Source of the DNA: Elusimicrobiota bacterium
GTDB lineage: Bacteria > Elusimicrobiota > Elusimicrobia > FEN-1173
Length of the DNA: 35,154 nt
Reading direction: 5' to 3'
Assembly (NCBI GenBank): GCA_022703335.1
Contig: JAKLDV010000013.1
Location: 1 to 35,154, forward strand
The position numbers and the translations under genes were made by a program. The notes under the pieces were generated by a model. That model searched no databases, was not told the DNA's origin, and saw only the letters and a program-made list of their open reading frames with translations. This document shows, one piece after another, positions 1,544 to 9,070 of this stretch. The first letter of the stretch is position 1, and every line of letters begins with the position of its first letter.

Positions 1544-2977
1544 ATGTCTGAATCGGTTTTGGTCGCCAACGCCGCAAAGTGTTCCGAGAGCCATAAAGCG
1601 CAGTGGGAGTCATTGCGTTCGCAGAACCCGGGGATCGACAAGATCCTCGCGGCGGCGGGCAAGCCGCAGGGCCTCGCCCTGGTCTTCAGCCACGACGACC
1701 CGGACGGGATCACCAGCGGATTGATCTTCAAACGGTTGCTGGAGAAAAAGGGCTGGCGCACCGTGTGGAAGATGCCCGCGGGTTTCGTGCTCACGACCGC
1801 CCAGTTCGACGCCGCCTTGAAGGCCCATCCGGACGCCAAGGCGGTTTTTGTTTTGGACAAGGGCACGCTCGCGCCCTACGCCGATTTCGGGAAACGCATG
1901 CCGGTCTACCTGGTGGACCACCATCCGTCCCCGAAGGCGCCCACCGACTGCGTCCTCTTCAACCCCTGCCTTGAGAAATACGCCTCCTGTTCCGGCTCGT
2001 TCCTGGCGCACGGCCTGGCGACCTTGGCCGGCACCCGCGACGACTACGACGATTTCCTGGCGCTGATCGGCCTGAAAGGCGATTGGGCCATCGAACCGAC
2101 CAAGGGGATCCTGTCGGACATGGTGAAACCGTTCTTCGCGGAATACGCCATGAAATTCCGGAACCTCCTGCAGCTGGTGACCGAGCGGCCCACCATGTTC
2201 GACGCCGAACAGCGCGAGTTGACCTGCCCGCTCTCGAGGTTCGCCGAATTCGTGCACGCCGTGGGCGGCGGCGGGTTCCAATATTTCTACAACGACCGCG
2301 ACGCCTCCCTGCGCGACGTGGACCACCCCGCCTGCATCGGGGCGGCCCTGGAGAAAATGGCCGGCAAGGTGGCGGAGCTGAAAAAGATCACCACCCTGGA
2401 CGACTTCATCAAGCTGTTGCCCGAACCGGAAGCGGGGTCGCTGAAAAAGATTTGGAAGTTCTTCCTGGAGGACTGGGAGAAGGCGTTCCGCCTGCTCGAT
2501 TCCTCCACGAAGATCCTCGGCCTGGCCGACACCTCCCTGTACGTCTTCGTGGGCGGGAAAGTGCCGCTCCTGCCGATGATCGGCTCCATCAAGCTGTTCG
2601 AGCTGAAACAGGCGGCCAAGGACAAGTTCGCGCAGATCATCATGGTCAGTTCGGTGTCCGCCGACTACACGCACGTGTCCGTGCGGGGCACGGGCGACCA
2701 GGTCCATTCCGGCAAGTTCTGCGGCCAGCTGGCCGGCGCGCTGCAGACCAAGTTCCCCAAACAGAAGGACGTCATCAGCGGCGGCGGACATCCCCGCGCG
2801 GCCGAGTGCACCGTCCGCACCGGCGAGGTGCCGTTCATCAAGGTGTTGCACGAGGTGGTGCTGCAGCTCAACGAGATGTCCGAACTGGACAACCGTTCCC
2901 GCGCCGCTGCGGAAGGAAGCCACCAGGCCCGCGCCAAGGAACTGGGCCTGGACTACCTGAGCCTGGCCAAGGCCTAA
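1544..2977 (+). CDS. DHH family phosphoesterase (RecJ/NrnA-like)
   Basis: A 477-residue cytoplasmic DHH-DHHA1 phosphoesterase, the superfamily of RecJ exonucleases, NrnA nanoRNases and archaeal GAN-type nucleases that hydrolyse phosphodiesters with two Mn ions. Motif I is SHDDPDGIT (49-57), motif II VLDKG (D105), motif III the signature DHH (D125-H126-H127) and motif IV probably GLKGDW (D180). The DHHA1 substrate-binding loop is GGGHPRAA (413-420). All metal ligands expected for an active enzyme are present. Between the domains lies a long insert (about 190-340) I do not recognise. It is the first gene after a promoter, and the next gene starts four bases after its stop. The neighbouring Clp1-type kinase suggests the substrate is an RNA or DNA end. 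Fold certain, substrate inferred. Confidence 0.88.
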   Translation: MSESVLVANAAKCSESHKAQWESLRSQNPGIDKILAAAGKPQGLALVFSHDDPDGITSGLIFKRLLEKKGWRTVWKMPAGFVLTTAQFDAALKAHPDAKAVFVLDKGTLAPYADFGKRMPVYLVDHHPSPKAPTDCVLFNPCLEKYASCSGSFLAHGLATLAGTRDDYDDFLALIGLKGDWAIEPTKGILSDMVKPFFAEYAMKFRNLLQLVTERPTMFDAEQRELTCPLSRFAEFVHAVGGGGFQYFYNDRDASLRDVDHPACIGAALEKMAGKVAELKKITTLDDFIKLLPEPEAGSLKKIWKFFLEDWEKAFRLLDSSTKILGLADTSLYVFVGGKVPLLPMIGSIKLFELKQAAKDKFAQIIMVSSVSADYTHVSVRGTGDQVHSGKFCGQLAGALQTKFPKQKDVISGGGHPRAAECTVRTGEVPFIKVLHEVVLQLNEMSELDNRSRAAAEGSHQARAKELGLDYLSLAKA

Positions 2978-2981
2978 CGAT

Positions 2982-3389
2982 ATGACCTTCAAAGAGACCG
3001 AATTCCCCGCGACGCTCAAATACCTGAAAGCCGCCATGGCGGCCGACCCGGACCCGCTCCTTATAAAGGAAGTGCTGGCCCAGATCATCAAGCTCTACGA
3101 GGCGGTGCCTCTCTATCCCGGCATCGCCAACATGTGCGCCGCCCAGGCGGTGAAGGCGGTGGAGCCCAAAGACGTGGCCGTGGGGCAGAAGATTTATTTC
3201 CAGAAGGGGAACGTGTCCTACCTGGGCACCGTGGCGGAGAAGACCGCCGACGGCCTCAAACTCAAGGCGGTGAAGGCCGCCGAGGAGGACGTGAGCGTCT
3301 CCCTGAAGGACATGAGCAAAGTGAAGGCGATCAACGAGAAGATATTGGAAGAGCTGTGGCCGTCGCTCGTTTTCGAGAAGGTAAAATGA
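2982..3389 (+). CDS. Unknown 135-residue protein between nuclease and kinase
   Basis: I do not recognise this protein. Residues 1-60 look helical (a run of Lys/Ala/Leu with LIKEVLAQIIKLYEAVP). Residues 65-110 look like a small beta-barrel of the SH3/KOW type (VAVGQKIYFQKGNVSYLG and later short strands), and the end is helical. There is no signal peptide, membrane segment or Cys cluster, so it is cytoplasmic. The start lies four bases after the DHH stop and the stop overlaps the kinase start as ATGA, so it is probably translated by coupling and made in step with both enzymes. The beta-barrel part could bind nucleic acid or act as an adaptor; that is inference from context and predicted fold only. 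Confidence 0.7.
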   Translation: MTFKETEFPATLKYLKAAMAADPDPLLIKEVLAQIIKLYEAVPLYPGIANMCAAQAVKAVEPKDVAVGQKIYFQKGNVSYLGTVAEKTADGLKLKAVKAAEEDVSVSLKDMSKVKAINEKILEELWPSLVFEKVK

Positions 3390-4642
3390 AAGAACAAAAG
3401 ATAGGCAAAGAGGAATTTTTTCTGTTGGTGGGGCCGGCGCAGTTCGCCGTGACCTCCGGCGCGGTGGAGGTGATCGCGGCGCGGATCGGCAAAGGCGAGA
3501 AGCTCAACGTGCCTCTCGGCAAACGCGTTCCCATCCGGGCGCTGGAAGACACCGTTTTGCAGGTGGAATGCGAACCGGACAAACTCACCAAGATGGAAGG
3601 CAGCTCCATCCCCGCCGAGTGGGACGCGCTGGCCAAGCGCGTCGTGGGGGAGCGCCGCGACGGCCGGCTCTATTCCATCGTGGTCTTGGGCGAGGTGGAC
3701 ACCGGCAAGACGTTTTTCAGCACCTACATCGCCAACCGGCTCCTGCACCACCTGAAGAGGACCGCCATCCTGGACTGCGACACGGGCCAGTCGGACATCG
3801 GCCCGCCGGGAACCTTCGGCATGCTGGTGATGAAAAAACCCGTGGTGTTCCTCACCGAGGAACCGGCCACCTACCTTTATATGCTGGGCGCCCATTCGCC
3901 GGGGCTGCATTTCCTGCCGGCGTTGACCGGCCTGGCGGCCATGCTGGAGAAGGCCCGCGCCGACGCCGACGCGCTCATCATCGACACCACCGGATGGGTG
4001 CAGGGCGACGGCGGCCGCGCCATCAAGAAGTCCAAGCTGGACATCGTCAACCCCGACATGGTGGTCTTGATGCAGCGGGGCACGGAACTGGAGCACCTGG
4101 TCAAACATCTGCCCAAGGAACGGGTGGTGCGGCTGCCGGTTTCCAAGAAGGCGTCGTCCACGTCGCAGATGGAACGGAAATCCCTGCGCGAACTGGTGAG
4201 CGTGCGTTATTTCAAGGGCGCCCAGAAGATGGAAATCCCGTTTTCCCGGGTCTTCACCGACCGCTGTTATTTCCTCACCGGGACCCCGTTGACGCTGGAC
4301 GGGGCCCTGCACGCGGAACGTCTTTCCGCGTGGGAGGGGTCCCTGGCGGTGACGGCCAAACCGCTCACGCCGGACGTGAGCAAGGGCTGGCCGAAGGAGA
4401 TCGGCCGGGTGACCAACTTCGTGGCCGGGGACGAGAAGGGCCTGATGGTGGGCCTTTTGGACGACAAACAGAATTGTCTGGCCATCGCCCGGCTCGATGA
4501 GATCGATTTCGCCAAGAAGTGTTTCCGTCTCCGCACGCCGTTCTCCGGTTCGCCGGAACAGGTGCGCGGCATCCAGTTCGGGTCCCTCAAACTGGCCGAA
4601 GACGGACGGGAAGCCGGTTTCATCGAACCGGGAAGCATTTAG
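3386..4642 (+). CDS. Clp1/Grc3-type polynucleotide 5'-hydroxyl kinase
   Basis: A 418-residue protein with the three-part layout of the Clp1/Nol9/Grc3 family, which transfers the ATP gamma-phosphate to the 5'-OH of RNA or DNA. An N-terminal beta-sandwich (about 10-70) precedes the P-loop GEVDTGKT (102-109). The Clp1 box LDCDTGQSDIGPPGT (129-143) binds the 5'-OH end, and the Walker B-like segment LIIDTTGWVQG (197-207) matches the family's TxGW motif. A C-terminal beta domain (about 320-418) follows. All catalytic elements look intact. Family members are usual in eukaryotes and archaea and scattered in bacteria. The ATG overlaps the upstream stop (ATGA), tying it to the 135-residue protein and the DHH phosphoesterase. 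A generic P-loop GTPase is unlikely given the DTGQ and TTGW boxes. Confidence 0.88.
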   Translation: MKEQKIGKEEFFLLVGPAQFAVTSGAVEVIAARIGKGEKLNVPLGKRVPIRALEDTVLQVECEPDKLTKMEGSSIPAEWDALAKRVVGERRDGRLYSIVVLGEVDTGKTFFSTYIANRLLHHLKRTAILDCDTGQSDIGPPGTFGMLVMKKPVVFLTEEPATYLYMLGAHSPGLHFLPALTGLAAMLEKARADADALIIDTTGWVQGDGGRAIKKSKLDIVNPDMVVLMQRGTELEHLVKHLPKERVVRLPVSKKASSTSQMERKSLRELVSVRYFKGAQKMEIPFSRVFTDRCYFLTGTPLTLDGALHAERLSAWEGSLAVTAKPLTPDVSKGWPKEIGRVTNFVAGDEKGLMVGLLDDKQNCLAIARLDEIDFAKKCFRLRTPFSGSPEQVRGIQFGSLKLAEDGREAGFIEPGSI

Positions 4643-4718
4643 CCTTTAGGCGCTCGCCCTCCGACCGCAACGCCGTCCTCCGCTCCCCGTCTTTTCGTTT
4701 TGTCCCCGGGATAAAACC

Positions 4719-5246
4719 ATGAAAATGCGGTGCGACATCCACATCAACAACGCCTTTCGAAAACTCCTGCTGGTGCAGGAGCGCGAAGAGACGCTGGAAC
4801 ACATGGCGTTGCGGCTCTCGGCGTTCATCCTGTTCTGGGATTTCGACCCGAAGATGGCCGTCCCCATGGACCGGCCCCCCTTGGCGGGGCAGGAGTTCCG
4901 GCCGGACATCATCGGGCTGACCCCGGGCGGGGAGATCGCGCTGTGGGGGGAATGCGGCAACGTGACCCTGCACAAACTCAACAAGCTCACGCGGCGCTAC
5001 CCCTCCAGCAAGATCGTGGTGCTCAAGTCGTCGGAACAGGCGGGACAGAAGCTGCGGGAGGATTTGCGCAAGGACCGGACGGTGCGGGAGAAGCAGATCG
5101 AGATCTGGTGCTGGCCCGCCGCGGCGTTCGCTTCCTGGATGCGCGCCATGGACGAGACGGTCCACGCGGTGGGCGAGGTTTCCGGCCGGTCGCTGAACCT
5201 GACCATCAACGAAGTGCCTCTCGCGGTGGACCTCCGGTCCGCTTAG
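4719..5246 (+). CDS. YaeQ-like protein (PD-(D/E)XK nuclease fold)
   Basis: A 175-residue cytoplasmic protein that follows the YaeQ family end to end. An N-terminal strand with IHIN is followed by the helix EETLEHMALRLSAFILFW (23-40), which corresponds to the conserved E-x-x-MxLRLLAW helix of YaeQ. The core PDIIG (62-66) with EIALWGECG (72-80) and K86 corresponds to the region carrying the PD-(D/E)XK-like acidic and Lys residues. The C-terminal strand pair is LNLTINEVPLAVDL. YaeQ proteins have the nuclease fold but no proven activity. The start is 76 bases after the kinase stop with no clear promoter between, so it is probably the last gene of the cassette. An ATG six bases further in is an alternative start. 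Confidence 0.72.
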   Translation: MKMRCDIHINNAFRKLLLVQEREETLEHMALRLSAFILFWDFDPKMAVPMDRPPLAGQEFRPDIIGLTPGGEIALWGECGNVTLHKLNKLTRRYPSSKIVVLKSSEQAGQKLREDLRKDRTVREKQIEIWCWPAAAFASWMRAMDETVHAVGEVSGRSLNLTINEVPLAVDLRSA

Positions 5247-5268
5247 GACCGCCGTTAAAACTTTTTTT
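5230..5268. terminator. Possible bidirectional terminator between convergent genes
   Basis: In the 20-base gap between convergent stops lies an imperfect inverted repeat. GTTAAAA and TTTAAAC flank a T-run, with GGAC and GTCC outside, and oligo-A and oligo-T occur on each strand. It is the only such AT island for kilobases. The stem is weak. Confidence 0.3.
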
Positions 5269-6928
5269 AAACGTCCGCCCTTTCCAAATAGCGTTTGCCG
5301 GCAAGGAGCGGCCCCAGCACCACCGCGGCGTTGAGGAGGAAGAGCGCGGCCAGCACCAACGCCGTCCCCGGCGCGTCCCAGGCCGAGTTCGCCCGCACCA
5401 CGCTGTAGTAGTGCATCCGCATCAGCACCGCCTCCAGAGAGATCGTCGCCCCCACATAGAACAGACTGCTGACCATGAAGAGGAGCCCCCCCGGGGACGT
5501 CTCGATCTGGGGGACGTTCTCCACGCCGAACCGCGGAAAACGGGCCCCTAATCCCACCCCCATGGCGCAGAGGGCGAAAGACATCACGCCGATGGTCGTC
5601 ACCGACAGGCGCGTGACGAACACGTCCACGCCGAGCAGCCGGTTGGAAGCCCACACCAGCGCCACCCCCAACACGCAGAGCGGGAAAAAGCCGAGGAGCA
5701 CTTTTTCCATCAGGACGGTCCCCAGCCCGAACGGCGCCGTCCGCACCAGCCACCAGCATTTGCCTTCCAGGCTGACGGCGGGGAACACGAACCGCAGCGC
5801 CACCGACGACAGAACGAATCCCACCATGCCGATGTTGAGGAACGAGATCAATCCTTTGAGGTAGGCGTTGTCGAGAGGGAGTTTGTCGATGCTGATGAGA
5901 TACACCGCCACCAGCGCCAGGAGGAGCAGGAGCTGCGACCACTGGTTGGCGTCGCGCACGAAGAGCAGGGCGTCTTTTCCAACCAGCCCGCGGAACCCGC
6001 TGGGAAAGAAGCGCGGCACCCAGCGCCATTCGCGGCCGAGCGCGCTTGTGCCCTGCCGACGGCCGGATTCCTGCGCCGAGGTCCAGCCGAAGTAATAGGC
6101 CTTCTCGGCGAAGAACACCAGGATCGACCCCAGCAGCACCGCCGCCCCGGCCAGCAGCCCCGCGTCGGCCAGCAGGCCGGCGCCTCGGTCCGCGGTGTAG
6201 GCCGCCACCGCCGAGGTCATCCACCAGGACGGGAGATAGGGGGCCAGCGGGGCCTCCAGCAGGGCGATGTATTGGATGAGGACCTCGAACGAGTCGGCGC
6301 GGACGAGTTTTTCCGGCTGGAGCCAGCGGAACAGCACGTAGAGGGAGCCGCCCACGAACACTCCGAGCAGGAGCATCACCTCCCGCACCCGGCGGGAGGG
6401 AAAAACGCACATCAGCGCCAGGCTCAGTCCGATGCCGAGCGTGCAGGCGATGAGGACGAACGGCACCGCCATCGCCGCCAGGAACACCCAGAACCCCTTG
6501 CCCAGTCCGTACACGAACCCGTACGCCGCCAGGAACGGCCACATCGCCAAAAGCACCATCCAGGAGGAGAACGCCGCCGTCTCCACGGCCTTGAAGAGGA
6601 ACACGGACCGGAACGGCAGGGGGCTTTGCACCAGGAAGGGCAGGTCCTGCGCGAAGAAGAGCGTGGTGAAGGAGGCCAGCGTGCTGGAGAAGACGATCAT
6701 CAGGAAAGTGGTGAGGAAAGCCATGGCCATGAGTTTCACGATGAGCAGGCTCCCGATCATCTCCACCGAATGCACCTCCCAGAGGAGGCGGACGAACCCG
6801 TAGTAGAGGACGAAGAGGAAGACGGCGCCCAGGCCGCCGAACCCCAGGAACTCCAGCACGTCGCCGTAACGCATGACGCTCAGGCGGTTCTTCAACATGA
6901 GGAGACGGTTCTTGAGGAGGAGGAACAT
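5267..6928 (-). CDS. ABC-2 type exporter permease
   Basis: A 553-residue polytopic membrane protein and the permease of an ABC exporter; the ATPase gene ends 15 bases upstream. I count about 12 hydrophobic segments in two blocks split by a hydrophilic stretch around residues 280-310. The segment SLEGKCWWLVRTAPF (about 390-404) is a hallmark of a family of large putative ABC-2 permeases in which a central SLEGK-x-WW motif precedes the second membrane block. No periplasmic domain is obvious. The N-terminus has a small tandem LKNRL repeat, and in-frame ATGs at residues 11 and 19 are alternative starts. It is the last gene of a long minus-strand run. The exported substrate is unknown; a lipid is possible given the lipid-kinase neighbour. 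Confidence 0.8.
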   Translation of the reverse strand: MFLLLKNRLLMLKNRLSVMRYGDVLEFLGFGGLGAVFLFVLYYGFVRLLWEVHSVEMIGSLLIVKLMAMAFLTTFLMIVFSSTLASFTTLFFAQDLPFLVQSPLPFRSVFLFKAVETAAFSSWMVLLAMWPFLAAYGFVYGLGKGFWVFLAAMAVPFVLIACTLGIGLSLALMCVFPSRRVREVMLLLGVFVGGSLYVLFRWLQPEKLVRADSFEVLIQYIALLEAPLAPYLPSWWMTSAVAAYTADRGAGLLADAGLLAGAAVLLGSILVFFAEKAYYFGWTSAQESGRRQGTSALGREWRWVPRFFPSGFRGLVGKDALLFVRDANQWSQLLLLLALVAVYLISIDKLPLDNAYLKGLISFLNIGMVGFVLSSVALRFVFPAVSLEGKCWWLVRTAPFGLGTVLMEKVLLGFFPLCVLGVALVWASNRLLGVDVFVTRLSVTTIGVMSFALCAMGVGLGARFPRFGVENVPQIETSPGGLLFMVSSLFYVGATISLEAVLMRMHYYSVVRANSAWDAPGTALVLAALFLLNAAVVLGPLLAGKRYLERADV

Positions 6929-6943
6929 GGGGACGCGGGGCGG

Positions 6944-7693
6944 CTACAGGTATTTCAGGAGTTCGTGGTATTCGTCGCCGCCGGTGAGGCGGAGGAAGAC
7001 GTCCTCGAGGGATCCGGAGGAATCGGCTTTCCGTCGGAGCTCCTCGGTGGAGCCGACGAGCCCGAGCCGGCCCTCCTGCACGATGCCGATGCGGTGGCAG
7101 AGTTTCTCGGCGATTTCAAGCACGTGCGTGCACATGAAGATGCTGACGCCTTTGCCGGCGAGGTTCCGGAAGACGTCTTTCACCAGCCGGGCGCTCTTCG
7201 GGTCGAGGCCCACCATCGGCTCGTCGAGGAAGAGGACCCGCGGCTGGTGCAACAGGACGCCGGCCAGCACCAGCTTCTGCCGCATGCCGTGCGAGTAGGT
7301 CTCCACGAGCTGGTCGCCCCACTCGCCGAGCTCGAACATCTCCAGAAATTCGGGGATCTTCTTTTTCTGGTGGGAAAGGTCCACCTCGTAGAAATCGCCG
7401 ACGAGACGGAGGAATTCTTTCCCGGTGAGCTGGGGATACACGTAGGGCTGGTCGGGCACCAGGGCCAGGATGCGTTTCGCCTCGCGCGGGTGGGTTTGGA
7501 CGTCGAAGCCCCCGACCCAGGCCCGGCCGGCGCTGGGCCGCAGAAGGCCGGTGAGGAGTTTGACGGTGGTGGTCTTCCCCGCGCCGTTGGGGCCGAGGAA
7601 CCCGAATATCTCCCCGGGAGGGATCTCCAAGTCCAGGCGATCCACCGCCACGATGTCACGGAAGCGTTTCGACAGGCCCTGGGTTTTGATCAT
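6944..7693 (-). CDS. ABC transporter ATP-binding protein
   Basis: A 249-residue ATPase that drives the permease encoded just downstream. The Walker A GPNGAGKTT is at 34-42 and the Q-loop is PDQPYVYP (Q82). The signature YSHGMRQK (133-140) is the usual ABC-2 exporter variant of LSGGQ. Walker B is VLFLDEP (153-159), the D-loop GLDP, and the switch His is H190. Length and motifs match the CcmA/NatA-type half transporter ATPases. It starts four bases after the stop of the DGK1-like gene, so the exporter is translated with it. Active-site residues are complete. Confidence 0.92.
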   Translation of the reverse strand: MIKTQGLSKRFRDIVAVDRLDLEIPPGEIFGFLGPNGAGKTTTVKLLTGLLRPSAGRAWVGGFDVQTHPREAKRILALVPDQPYVYPQLTGKEFLRLVGDFYEVDLSHQKKKIPEFLEMFELGEWGDQLVETYSHGMRQKLVLAGVLLHQPRVLFLDEPMVGLDPKSARLVKDVFRNLAGKGVSIFMCTHVLEIAEKLCHRIGIVQEGRLGLVGSTEELRRKADSSGSLEDVFLRLTGGDEYHELLKYL

Positions 7694-7697
7694 GTTC

Positions 7698-8297
7698 TCA
7701 GAACGGGGAAACGGTCAGCCGCAGCAGGCTCAACGCCGCGCCGGAGAGGACCGGCACCCAGAGGTTATCGCCCAACGGCAGGGGGAGGATCTCCGCCAGG
7801 GTGGCGACGAGGGCGCCCACGATGAGCTCGACCGATCCGAAAGGGGAGGCGAGCGTGAGGGAACCGGTGAGCCAGCACGCCAGGAAACACGCCAGACTGC
7901 CTTCCATGCTTTTGCCCCCGATGCGCAGGTGGCCCCACGTCCGGCCCACGAGGGCGGCGGCGGTGTCCCCGACGGCCAGGTAGCACAAGGCGGTGATGAC
8001 CACATCGGGGTACGGCACGAACAGGACCACGAGGAAAACCCCGAGAGCCGTCCAGAGGATGCCCGAGGGACGGTGCTGCTCCTCGGCGCGATGGATCCCC
8101 CGGAAGAGCTTCATCAGGGCGGCGTTGGCCGCCGGAGAACGGAGGCGGACCGCCTCGCCCGCCGCGGCCACGAGGAGGAACGTCCCGAATATCCACAGGG
8201 AGACGTTCTTCCCCGCCGCGGCATAGACCAGCACGTAGAGGAAGGTGAACAGGTGGAAAAATTTCCGTCGAAGTTCCTGGGGGAGGACGATCTTCAT
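7698..8297 (-). CDS. DGK1/SEC59/VTE5-like membrane lipid kinase
   Basis: A 199-residue integral membrane protein with about six hydrophobic segments. It matches the diacylglycerol/polyprenol kinase group (yeast DGK1, SEC59, plant VTE5), relatives of phosphatidate cytidylyltransferase that phosphorylate isoprenoid alcohols or diacylglycerol, usually with CTP. The first cytoplasmic motif ELRRKFFHL (8-16), the core YLAVGDTAAALVGR (106-119) with D111, the GGKSMEGSLA loop (127-136) and the C-terminal PLGDNLWVPVL are the family landmarks. Its ATG overlaps the upstream stop as ATGA. It may recycle a lipid alcohol for envelope building, perhaps linked to the ABC exporter; the substrate is inferred. 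Confidence 0.75.
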   Translation of the reverse strand: MKIVLPQELRRKFFHLFTFLYVLVYAAAGKNVSLWIFGTFLLVAAAGEAVRLRSPAANAALMKLFRGIHRAEEQHRPSGILWTALGVFLVVLFVPYPDVVITALCYLAVGDTAAALVGRTWGHLRIGGKSMEGSLACFLACWLTGSLTLASPFGSVELIVGALVATLAEILPLPLGDNLWVPVLSGAALSLLRLTVSPF

Positions 8298-9070
8298 GGA
8301 TTTTTGAATTTCAGGGCCAGCGGCCCGACCTTGCCGAAGAGGGTTTTGGAGAACGTCCATCCTTTGACGCCGGCCCAGACGGCGAATTGGGCGAGGCGGT
8401 CCAGGATGATCAGCGTGGCGGAGACGAAGTGGGCGGCCAGGGGTTTGAGCGGCACGTTCGCCGGGAAAAGGATCTTCAGCAACAGGACGAACACGAGCAC
8501 GTTGGAGAACAGGATGAGGACCAGCGAGAAGAACGTCCCCGCGTAGCGGAGATCCGGCTGATTTTGAAGGAGGGCGTGTCCGGTGAGGGCGGCGTGAAAA
8601 GAGAAGGTGAGCCCGATGGTGAAGGCGTACCAGAACGGCGGGACGGCGAACCCGACGAATCTCCGTGAGACCTCGAAGAGGCCCAGGGCGGTGAGCGTGT
8701 AGAACGGGACGCAGTACGGCGACAACGCCACCAGGAGGTTGCTGTCGCTGAGGGACACCTCGCCGCCTTTGGCGGAAACTTTCATGGATTTCACTCGGAA
8801 CCCCGACAGCCACGCGGCGAGGGCGTGGGTCAGTTCGTGCCCGAACACGTAGAGCCGCATGGGTTTTTGGAACAGCAGGTGGAGGAGGACGTATCCGCCC
8901 GCGCCGGCCAGCACGGGCGTGAGGGGCAACCGTTTCCCGGCCAGTTCGCAGAGGAGTCGCCACGTGGTCCAGAGGGCCGCCGCCAGCAGCGGCAGAAACG
9001 CCGCGGCCAGGAGGGGGGAGGTCCACGAGCGGCTGGAAAAACCGGCCGTTTTCGAAAAAAGTTTTTTCAC
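8294..9070 (-). CDS. Putative membrane zinc metalloprotease (HExxH, M50-like)
   Basis: A 258-residue membrane protein with about six hydrophobic segments. The motif FGHELTHALAAW (77-88) gives HELTH (H78, E79, H82), the zinc site and catalytic Glu of membrane-embedded peptidases. A following segment, VKSMKVSAKGGEVSL, resembles the beta-hairpin seen after the HExxH in M50-like proteins. I do not see a clear NxxPxxxxD motif for the third ligand; SPYCVPFYT (about 120) may take that place. The start is GTG 9068-9070, the first start codon after the upstream stop (14 bases) that gives a sensible MKKLFSK N-terminus. The stop overlaps the DGK1-like start. Site-2 protease activity is inferred and no substrate is evident nearby. 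Confidence 0.65.
   Translation of the reverse strand: MKKLFSKTAGFSSRSWTSPLLAAAFLPLLAAALWTTWRLLCELAGKRLPLTPVLAGAGGYVLLHLLFQKPMRLYVFGHELTHALAAWLSGFRVKSMKVSAKGGEVSLSDSNLLVALSPYCVPFYTLTALGLFEVSRRFVGFAVPPFWYAFTIGLTFSFHAALTGHALLQNQPDLRYAGTFFSLVLILFSNVLVFVLLLKILFPANVPLKPLAAHFVSATLIILDRLAQFAVWAGVKGWTFSKTLFGKVGPLALKFKNP

Follow-up and report, generated by a model that had tools for sequence, protein, structure and literature searches.

Four plus-strand genes in an Elusimicrobiota genome, for a DHH phosphoesterase, a small protein, a Clp1-type kinase and a YaeQ-like protein, raise the question of which of them belong together and what process they serve. The window analyzed here is a stretch of 35,154 nucleotides, and its open reading frames confirm a RecJ/GAN-like DHH-DHHA1 phosphoesterase of 477 aa (1544..2977), a 135-aa protein, referred to as DUF in gene orders (2982..3389), a Clp1/Grc3-family P-loop kinase of 418 aa (3386..4642) and a YaeQ-like protein of 175 aa (4719..5246). 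As the first-pass annotation of the sequence had described, a gap of 4 bases separates the DHH gene from the 135-aa gene, which in turn overlaps the kinase gene by ATGA. The promoter that it had placed ahead of the cassette was not recovered, as our search there gave no sigma-70-like promoter. The genomes behind all comparisons are metagenome-assembled genomes throughout.

The proposed four-gene set held for the first three genes and failed for the fourth. The YaeQ-like protein matches Pfam YaeQ with 28.3 bits against a cut-off of 25 (1.7e-6), and its membership was rejected: such matches occur in 18 of the 41 genomes searched, nearly all of them without the kinase, no YaeQ-like gene was detected beside other trio loci, and in the trio-bearing genome G005 it lies on a contig other than the trio's. 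The YaeQ-like gene is a native neighbour and a bystander. The DHH protein, the 135-aa protein and the kinase almost certainly form a conserved functional module. Among 295 Elusimicrobiota genomes, the 135-aa protein and the kinase are confined to the identical 6 (plus one weak 135-aa match elsewhere; PF16575 matches below the cut-off were treated as unrelated P-loop proteins), and all 6 fall among the 13 with a full-length DHH protein. Under independence, the probabilities of these co-occurrences would be about 1e-12 and 2e-9, figures uncorrected for relatedness. Among 40 genomes surveyed from the Riflebacteria phylum, which were sampled independently of adjacency, 19 have the 135-aa protein, 19 have the kinase and one more a kinase fragment, and 17 have the full DHH protein and two more a fragment of it; each occurs as a single copy. 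Of the 18 sampled genomes of this phylum that have an intact DUF-kinase pair, and that share ancestry, 16 carry the three genes contiguously and the other two lack the DHH gene; the trio is contiguous also in two Hydrogenedentota. Its members recur in Riflebacteria, Elusimicrobiota, Hydrogenedentota, Caldisericota and one archaeon. Because the co-occurrence of DHH protein and kinase is conserved, the objection that the first-pass annotation had raised against its own proposal, a neighbourhood conserved no better than chance, fails.

The kinase scores 121.5 bits (5e-35) against Pfam CLP1_P, whose curated cut-off is 26.6, and the closest solved structures by PDB profiles are human Clp1 (2e-12), C. 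elegans CLPF-1 and NOL9. The earlier reading of Clp1/Grc3 motifs was borne out, since the set GxxxxGK[ST], DxDxGQ, TxGW and RxxxR is complete on the plus strand: Walker A GEVDTGKT at 3689-3712 (residues G102-T109), Walker B DCDTGQ at 3773-3790 (D130-Q135), the clasp TTGW at 3986-3997 (T201-W204) and the lid R264-x3-R268 at 4175-4189. Walker A, Walker B and the lid arginines show no or almost no variation across 34 relatives. The CLP1_P domain and these motifs are common to the bacterial Clp1 of Thermus scotoductus (Ts-Clp1) and to Clp1/Nol9/Grc3, whereas the window kinase carries an N-terminal domain of about 100 residues, and in a tree whose comparison left the Ts-Clp1 sequence outside, its clade is separate from Armatimonadota short forms and most archaeal Clp1. 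Researchers have found that Ts-Clp1 is a polynucleotide 5'-kinase, active on 5'-OH ssRNA and to a lesser degree on ssDNA (PMC6777427). The window kinase probably acts on 5'-OH polynucleotide ends as well. The reading frame (window:3386-4639) also matches phage protein family phrog_32231 of unknown function (5.9e-10), so phages may also carry Clp1-like kinases.

The DHH protein lies just below the Pfam cut-offs for DHH (25.6 bits, 1.6e-5) and DHHA1 (20.2 bits, 8e-4), and a relative 44% identical to it exceeds both. Its metal ligands, which had been read as complete, do not vary across 32 relatives: HDDPDG of motif I (1691-1708), D105, DHH (1916-1924), D180 of motif IV (2081-2083) and GGGH (2780-2791), all on the plus strand. 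Since it scores 44.8 bits (7.5e-12) against NCBIfam RecJ_archaeal, where the equivalog cut-off is 360, we class it as RecJ-like only. Foldseek matched its AlphaFold model (pLDDT 93.4) best to archaeal RecJ, GAN and RecJ-Cdc45 (E about 1e-14) and next to bacterial RecJ, with pApA and cyclic-dinucleotide esterases behind at about 1e-9, and with modest TM-scores of 0.36-0.58. The predicted fold therefore resembles the RecJ/GAN type rather than the NrnA/GdpP type, which favours the earlier assignment to RecJ-like enzymes over one acting on cyclic dinucleotides; a small-molecule DHH esterase is disfavoured by the same comparison. With archaeal PfRecJ (5x4h), MjaRecJ2 (7ykv) and GAN (5ghr) the protein shares the DHH+DHHA1 fold, the ligands and a comparable length, but identity to archaeal RecJ/GAN/RecJ-Cdc45 is only 16-18% and its scores are far under the equivalog cut-offs of RecJ_archaeal, RecJ_Meth and GAN, which argues for a separate bacterial subfamily. 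The activity of archaeal MjaRecJ1 is promoted by a 5'-phosphate (PMC5615345).

The 135-aa protein gave no match to Pfam or NCBIfam in profile searches, and 31 relatives could be aligned. Its model (pLDDT 85.3) has three N-terminal helices and a C-terminal five-strand barrel, which is similar to Sm/LSm small barrels; the N-terminal helices are an addition to that fold, a sequence family is lacking, and the Foldseek matches to Sm/LSm barrels are weak (E above 5e-3). The gene adjoins the kinase gene in nearly all trio-type loci, and the protein looks like a new small partner of the Clp1-type kinase.

The trio of the window is nearest to Riflebacteria, with identities of at most 70% for the kinase, 65% for the DHH protein and 58% for the 135-aa protein, and its kinase is nested in the Riflebacteria clade with support of 100/100. 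The trio was therefore gained as a unit, from a Riflebacteria-like source. Misbinning of a Riflebacteria contig was ruled out: the ABC permease next after the YaeQ-like gene (5267-6928) shows 66/63/61/55/52% identity from the same family to the same order, gene order in the flank agrees with that of relatives, and the tetranucleotide correlation with another contig of the genome is r=0.98. A different contig of the genome (L031) bears a native salvage operon with a second kinase, 33% identical to the window kinase, and this operon lacks the DHH and 135-aa genes exactly where G005 has both. The native kinase (G000:C218, L031:8156-9469) reads GKN for GKT and DPDQ for DTGQ; having lost the Walker A threonine and the DxDxGQ glycine, it is probably eroded. 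In the window genome the trio stands alone, with neither ComEC nor ComEA beside it.

Elsewhere, trio members stand in two kinds of context. The first is nucleoside salvage, seen in Elusimicrobia, Caldiserica, Hydrogenedentota and further bacteria; around trio members in Elusimicrobiota and Caldisericota, the operon genes include deoB, PNP, PyNP, RecJ, MTAP, ADA, CDA and dGTPase. G005, of the same order as the window genome, has the order PNP-PyNP-DHH-MTAP-ADA-CDA-135aa-kinase-dGTPase, and a Caldiserica locus (L055) reads deoB-PNP-PyNP-TIM barrel-P-loop kinase-DHH-MTAP-TIM barrel-P-loop kinase-ADA-135aa-kinase-dGTPase. In Endomicrobia, ADA, the 135-aa gene and the kinase stand together, and the DHH gene lies on another contig beside RecJ, PyNP, PNP, MTAP and PfkB; this separation of DHH and kinase was seen in four genomes. 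The duplicated pair of TIM barrel and P-loop kinase genes (L055:2928-4535 and 6969-8554) also occurs in the salvage operons of L121, L123 and L126; its TIM barrel is xylose-isomerase/endonuclease-IV-like, and the kinase partner carries a GRPGCGK P-loop. A long RecJ gene lies beside or near the DHH gene at L121:3627-5846, L124:6628-8850, L127:8913-11159 and L059:5607-7919, and the last of these copies contains an RNase_T (DEDD) exonuclease domain.

The second context is DNA uptake. Most Riflebacteria loci with enough upstream sequence have ComEC (PF03772) and ComEA beside the module, followed by a separate metallo-beta-lactamase (MBL) gene and then the trio. The MBL protein is of the ComEC type, corresponding to the C-terminal part of TIGR00361, and the metallo-beta-lactamase domain of ComEC is a nuclease (PMC8579336). 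ComEC, ComEA and MBL follow in the same order as in ComEC/ComEA competence loci, with the difference that the nuclease is a gene of its own and DHH-DUF-kinase comes after it. In G005 and Endomicrobia, ComEC-type MBL or DUF3006 genes lie near the kinase. One Riflebacteria locus (L153, G327:C27:50000-64000) retains ComEC-ComEA-MBL-DHH with a broken 135-aa gene and only a remnant of the kinase, and in another (L036:11740-13113) a group II intron reverse transcriptase/maturase lies downstream of the trio. The kinase also occurs without the DHH gene, in two Riflebacteria genomes that keep MBL-DUF-kinase and in a Clostridia MAG with PNP-MTAP-kinase. The DHH protein is therefore not the sole partner of the kinase, and in genomes lacking it RecJ may be the nuclease partner. 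A Hodarchaeaceae MAG (L066) has DUF-kinase behind a true archaeal RecJ, in an operon of informational genes that includes rps15 and KEOPS-like members. There (L066:7604-11493), with rps15 upstream of RecJ, and in a Hadesarchaea genome (L091:8474-10720), the Clp1-like kinase lies between archaeal RecJ and a 77-aa Pcc1-looking protein; the Hadesarchaea kinase frame has only 158 aa and is truncated or decayed.

Since relatives of the trio lie beside DNA-uptake genes or in nucleoside-recycling operons, the module quite probably serves the uptake and breakdown of nucleic acids and the salvage of their nucleosides. As an explanation of the whole, a transferable nucleic-acid scavenging module is the best that we can offer, and we hold it to be somewhat more probable than its negation. 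On nucleic acid that has been imported or fragmented, the Clp1-type kinase would phosphorylate 5'-OH ends, and the Sm-like 135-aa protein may serve as an adaptor, bound either to the nucleic acid or to the enzymes. Strands that carry a 5'-phosphate would then be digested 5'-to-3' by the RecJ-like DHH protein, and also by RecJ itself, to mononucleotides, which, once dephosphorylated, could enter PNP, PyNP, MTAP, ADA and CDA and yield bases and (deoxy)ribose-1-phosphate, the latter for DeoB. For the coupling at the center of this scheme, that the DHH or RecJ nuclease takes the product of the kinase as its substrate, we see the chances as even. MBL-fold nucleases generally leave 5'-phosphates, which counts against the scavenging reading, as do the separate contigs of DHH and kinase in Endomicrobia, the kinases without a DHH gene and the fact that no 5'-nucleotidase was identified in the salvage operon. 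The earlier idea that a kinase prepares 5' ends for a nuclease is plausible in view of the motifs and the cited biochemistry (PMC5615345, PMC6777427), whereas its RNA-decay, repair or defence setting finds no support in the contexts read; together with the linkage and the predicted folds, these lines of evidence let end preparation survive as a hypothesis, shifted to uptake and salvage.

Other roles have to be weighed against scavenging. The trio may be an accessory of transformation: it would trim imported ssDNA and repair its 5' ends so that the DNA is recombined and ligated, the latter a step that needs a 5'-phosphate, instead of being consumed. Most Riflebacteria loci have ComEC-ComEA-MBL immediately upstream, RecJ acts in recombination as a nuclease, and the kinase stays beside MBL/ComEA where the DHH gene has been lost; however, the neighbours in Elusimicrobiota, Caldisericota and Hydrogenedentota serve catabolism (PNP, PyNP, ADA, CDA, MTAP, dGTPase) rather than recombination, and we regard this role as improbable. 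Of similarly low probability is that the Clp1-like protein is a nucleoside or small-molecule 5'-kinase of salvage, with the DHH protein cutting short oligonucleotides and no end preparation involved. The constant presence of nucleoside phosphorylases and deaminases would fit, as would the order PNP-MTAP-kinase without DHH or DUF in the Clostridia MAG (L060), but all Clp1 polynucleotide-kinase motifs are retained, clasp and lid included, PfkB and other P-loop kinases are already present in the same operons, and those members of the family that have been assayed elsewhere proved to be polynucleotide kinases (PMC6777427). Less likely still is the cassette for cellular RNA decay, repair or defence that the first-pass annotation had envisaged. 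A RecJ-like fold next to a 5'-kinase and the archaeal DUF-kinase in its informational operon are compatible with it; the recurrent neighbours, however, are nucleoside phosphorylases, deaminases, dGTPase, RecJ and ComEC/ComEA/metallo-nuclease genes, which belong to salvage and DNA uptake, the link to YaeQ fails, and among the genes read in bacterial loci there was none for a toxin, CRISPR, restriction or another kind of defence. That the genes are chance neighbours applies to the YaeQ-like gene and nothing else, and is next to impossible for the trio, for which recurrence across four phyla and one archaeon and the confinement of DUF and kinase to the identical 6 of 295 genomes already refute it.

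Within the scavenging reading, a second P-loop protein deserves attention. In the four operons read from Elusimicrobiota with the DHH gene and without the Clp1-type kinase, a 395-aa protein (P395) follows ADA or CDA (L126:15715-16899, L124:15519-16694, L121:15531-16727 and L123:2115-3344). All 6 genomes with P395 have the DHH protein and none has the Clp1-type kinase, and the 13 Elusimicrobiota DHH genomes comprise 6 with DUF-kinase, 6 with P395, none with both, and one (G121) with neither, whose DHH gene lies on a 7-kb contig. All four members scanned match AAA_33 (best 2.2e-4), and P395 matches the PHROG family 'polynucleotide kinase' at 4.7e-4, with the signature GxxGxGKST...CDNxR. These weak profile scores suggest an AAA_33/T4-PNK-like phosphotransferase, possibly a T4-PNK-like kinase with an N-terminal domain that appears new. 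PDB profiles do not identify P395 as a polynucleotide kinase, as the top match, Pnkp1, is not significant (E=0.32), and homology to Clp1 was rejected because only the P-loop matches (hhalign probability 40%). We infer that P395 may be a non-orthologous replacement of the Clp1-type kinase in the 5'-end kinase step. More tentatively, we speculate that 5'-end phosphorylation gates an as yet undescribed DNA/RNA-eating pathway of uncultivated bacteria, in which, just behind ComEC, the Clp1-type kinase and its Sm-like partner would mark incoming strands for attack by RecJ-like nucleases, and Clp1-type and T4-PNK-like kinases would be interchangeable; in this complete form the idea is possible but rather doubtful.

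Bacterial Clp1 kinases are rare, and our search of open-access full texts turned up none that assigns them a biological function. Nor did a full-text search of the open-access literature find a paper that joins the DHH, 135-aa and kinase genes, in agreement with the earlier remark that no described system with the four-gene set was known. The component families are of known kinds, whereas their combination and the 135-aa protein look new. This analysis links one Clp1 kinase clade to DNA uptake and nucleoside catabolism in several phyla, and adds to it a small partner protein that is new and a RecJ-like subfamily of bacteria. With P395 as a candidate non-homologous replacement kinase, the functional guess becomes testable, and it would bear on the question of whether these uncultivated phyla take up DNA as food or for recombination.
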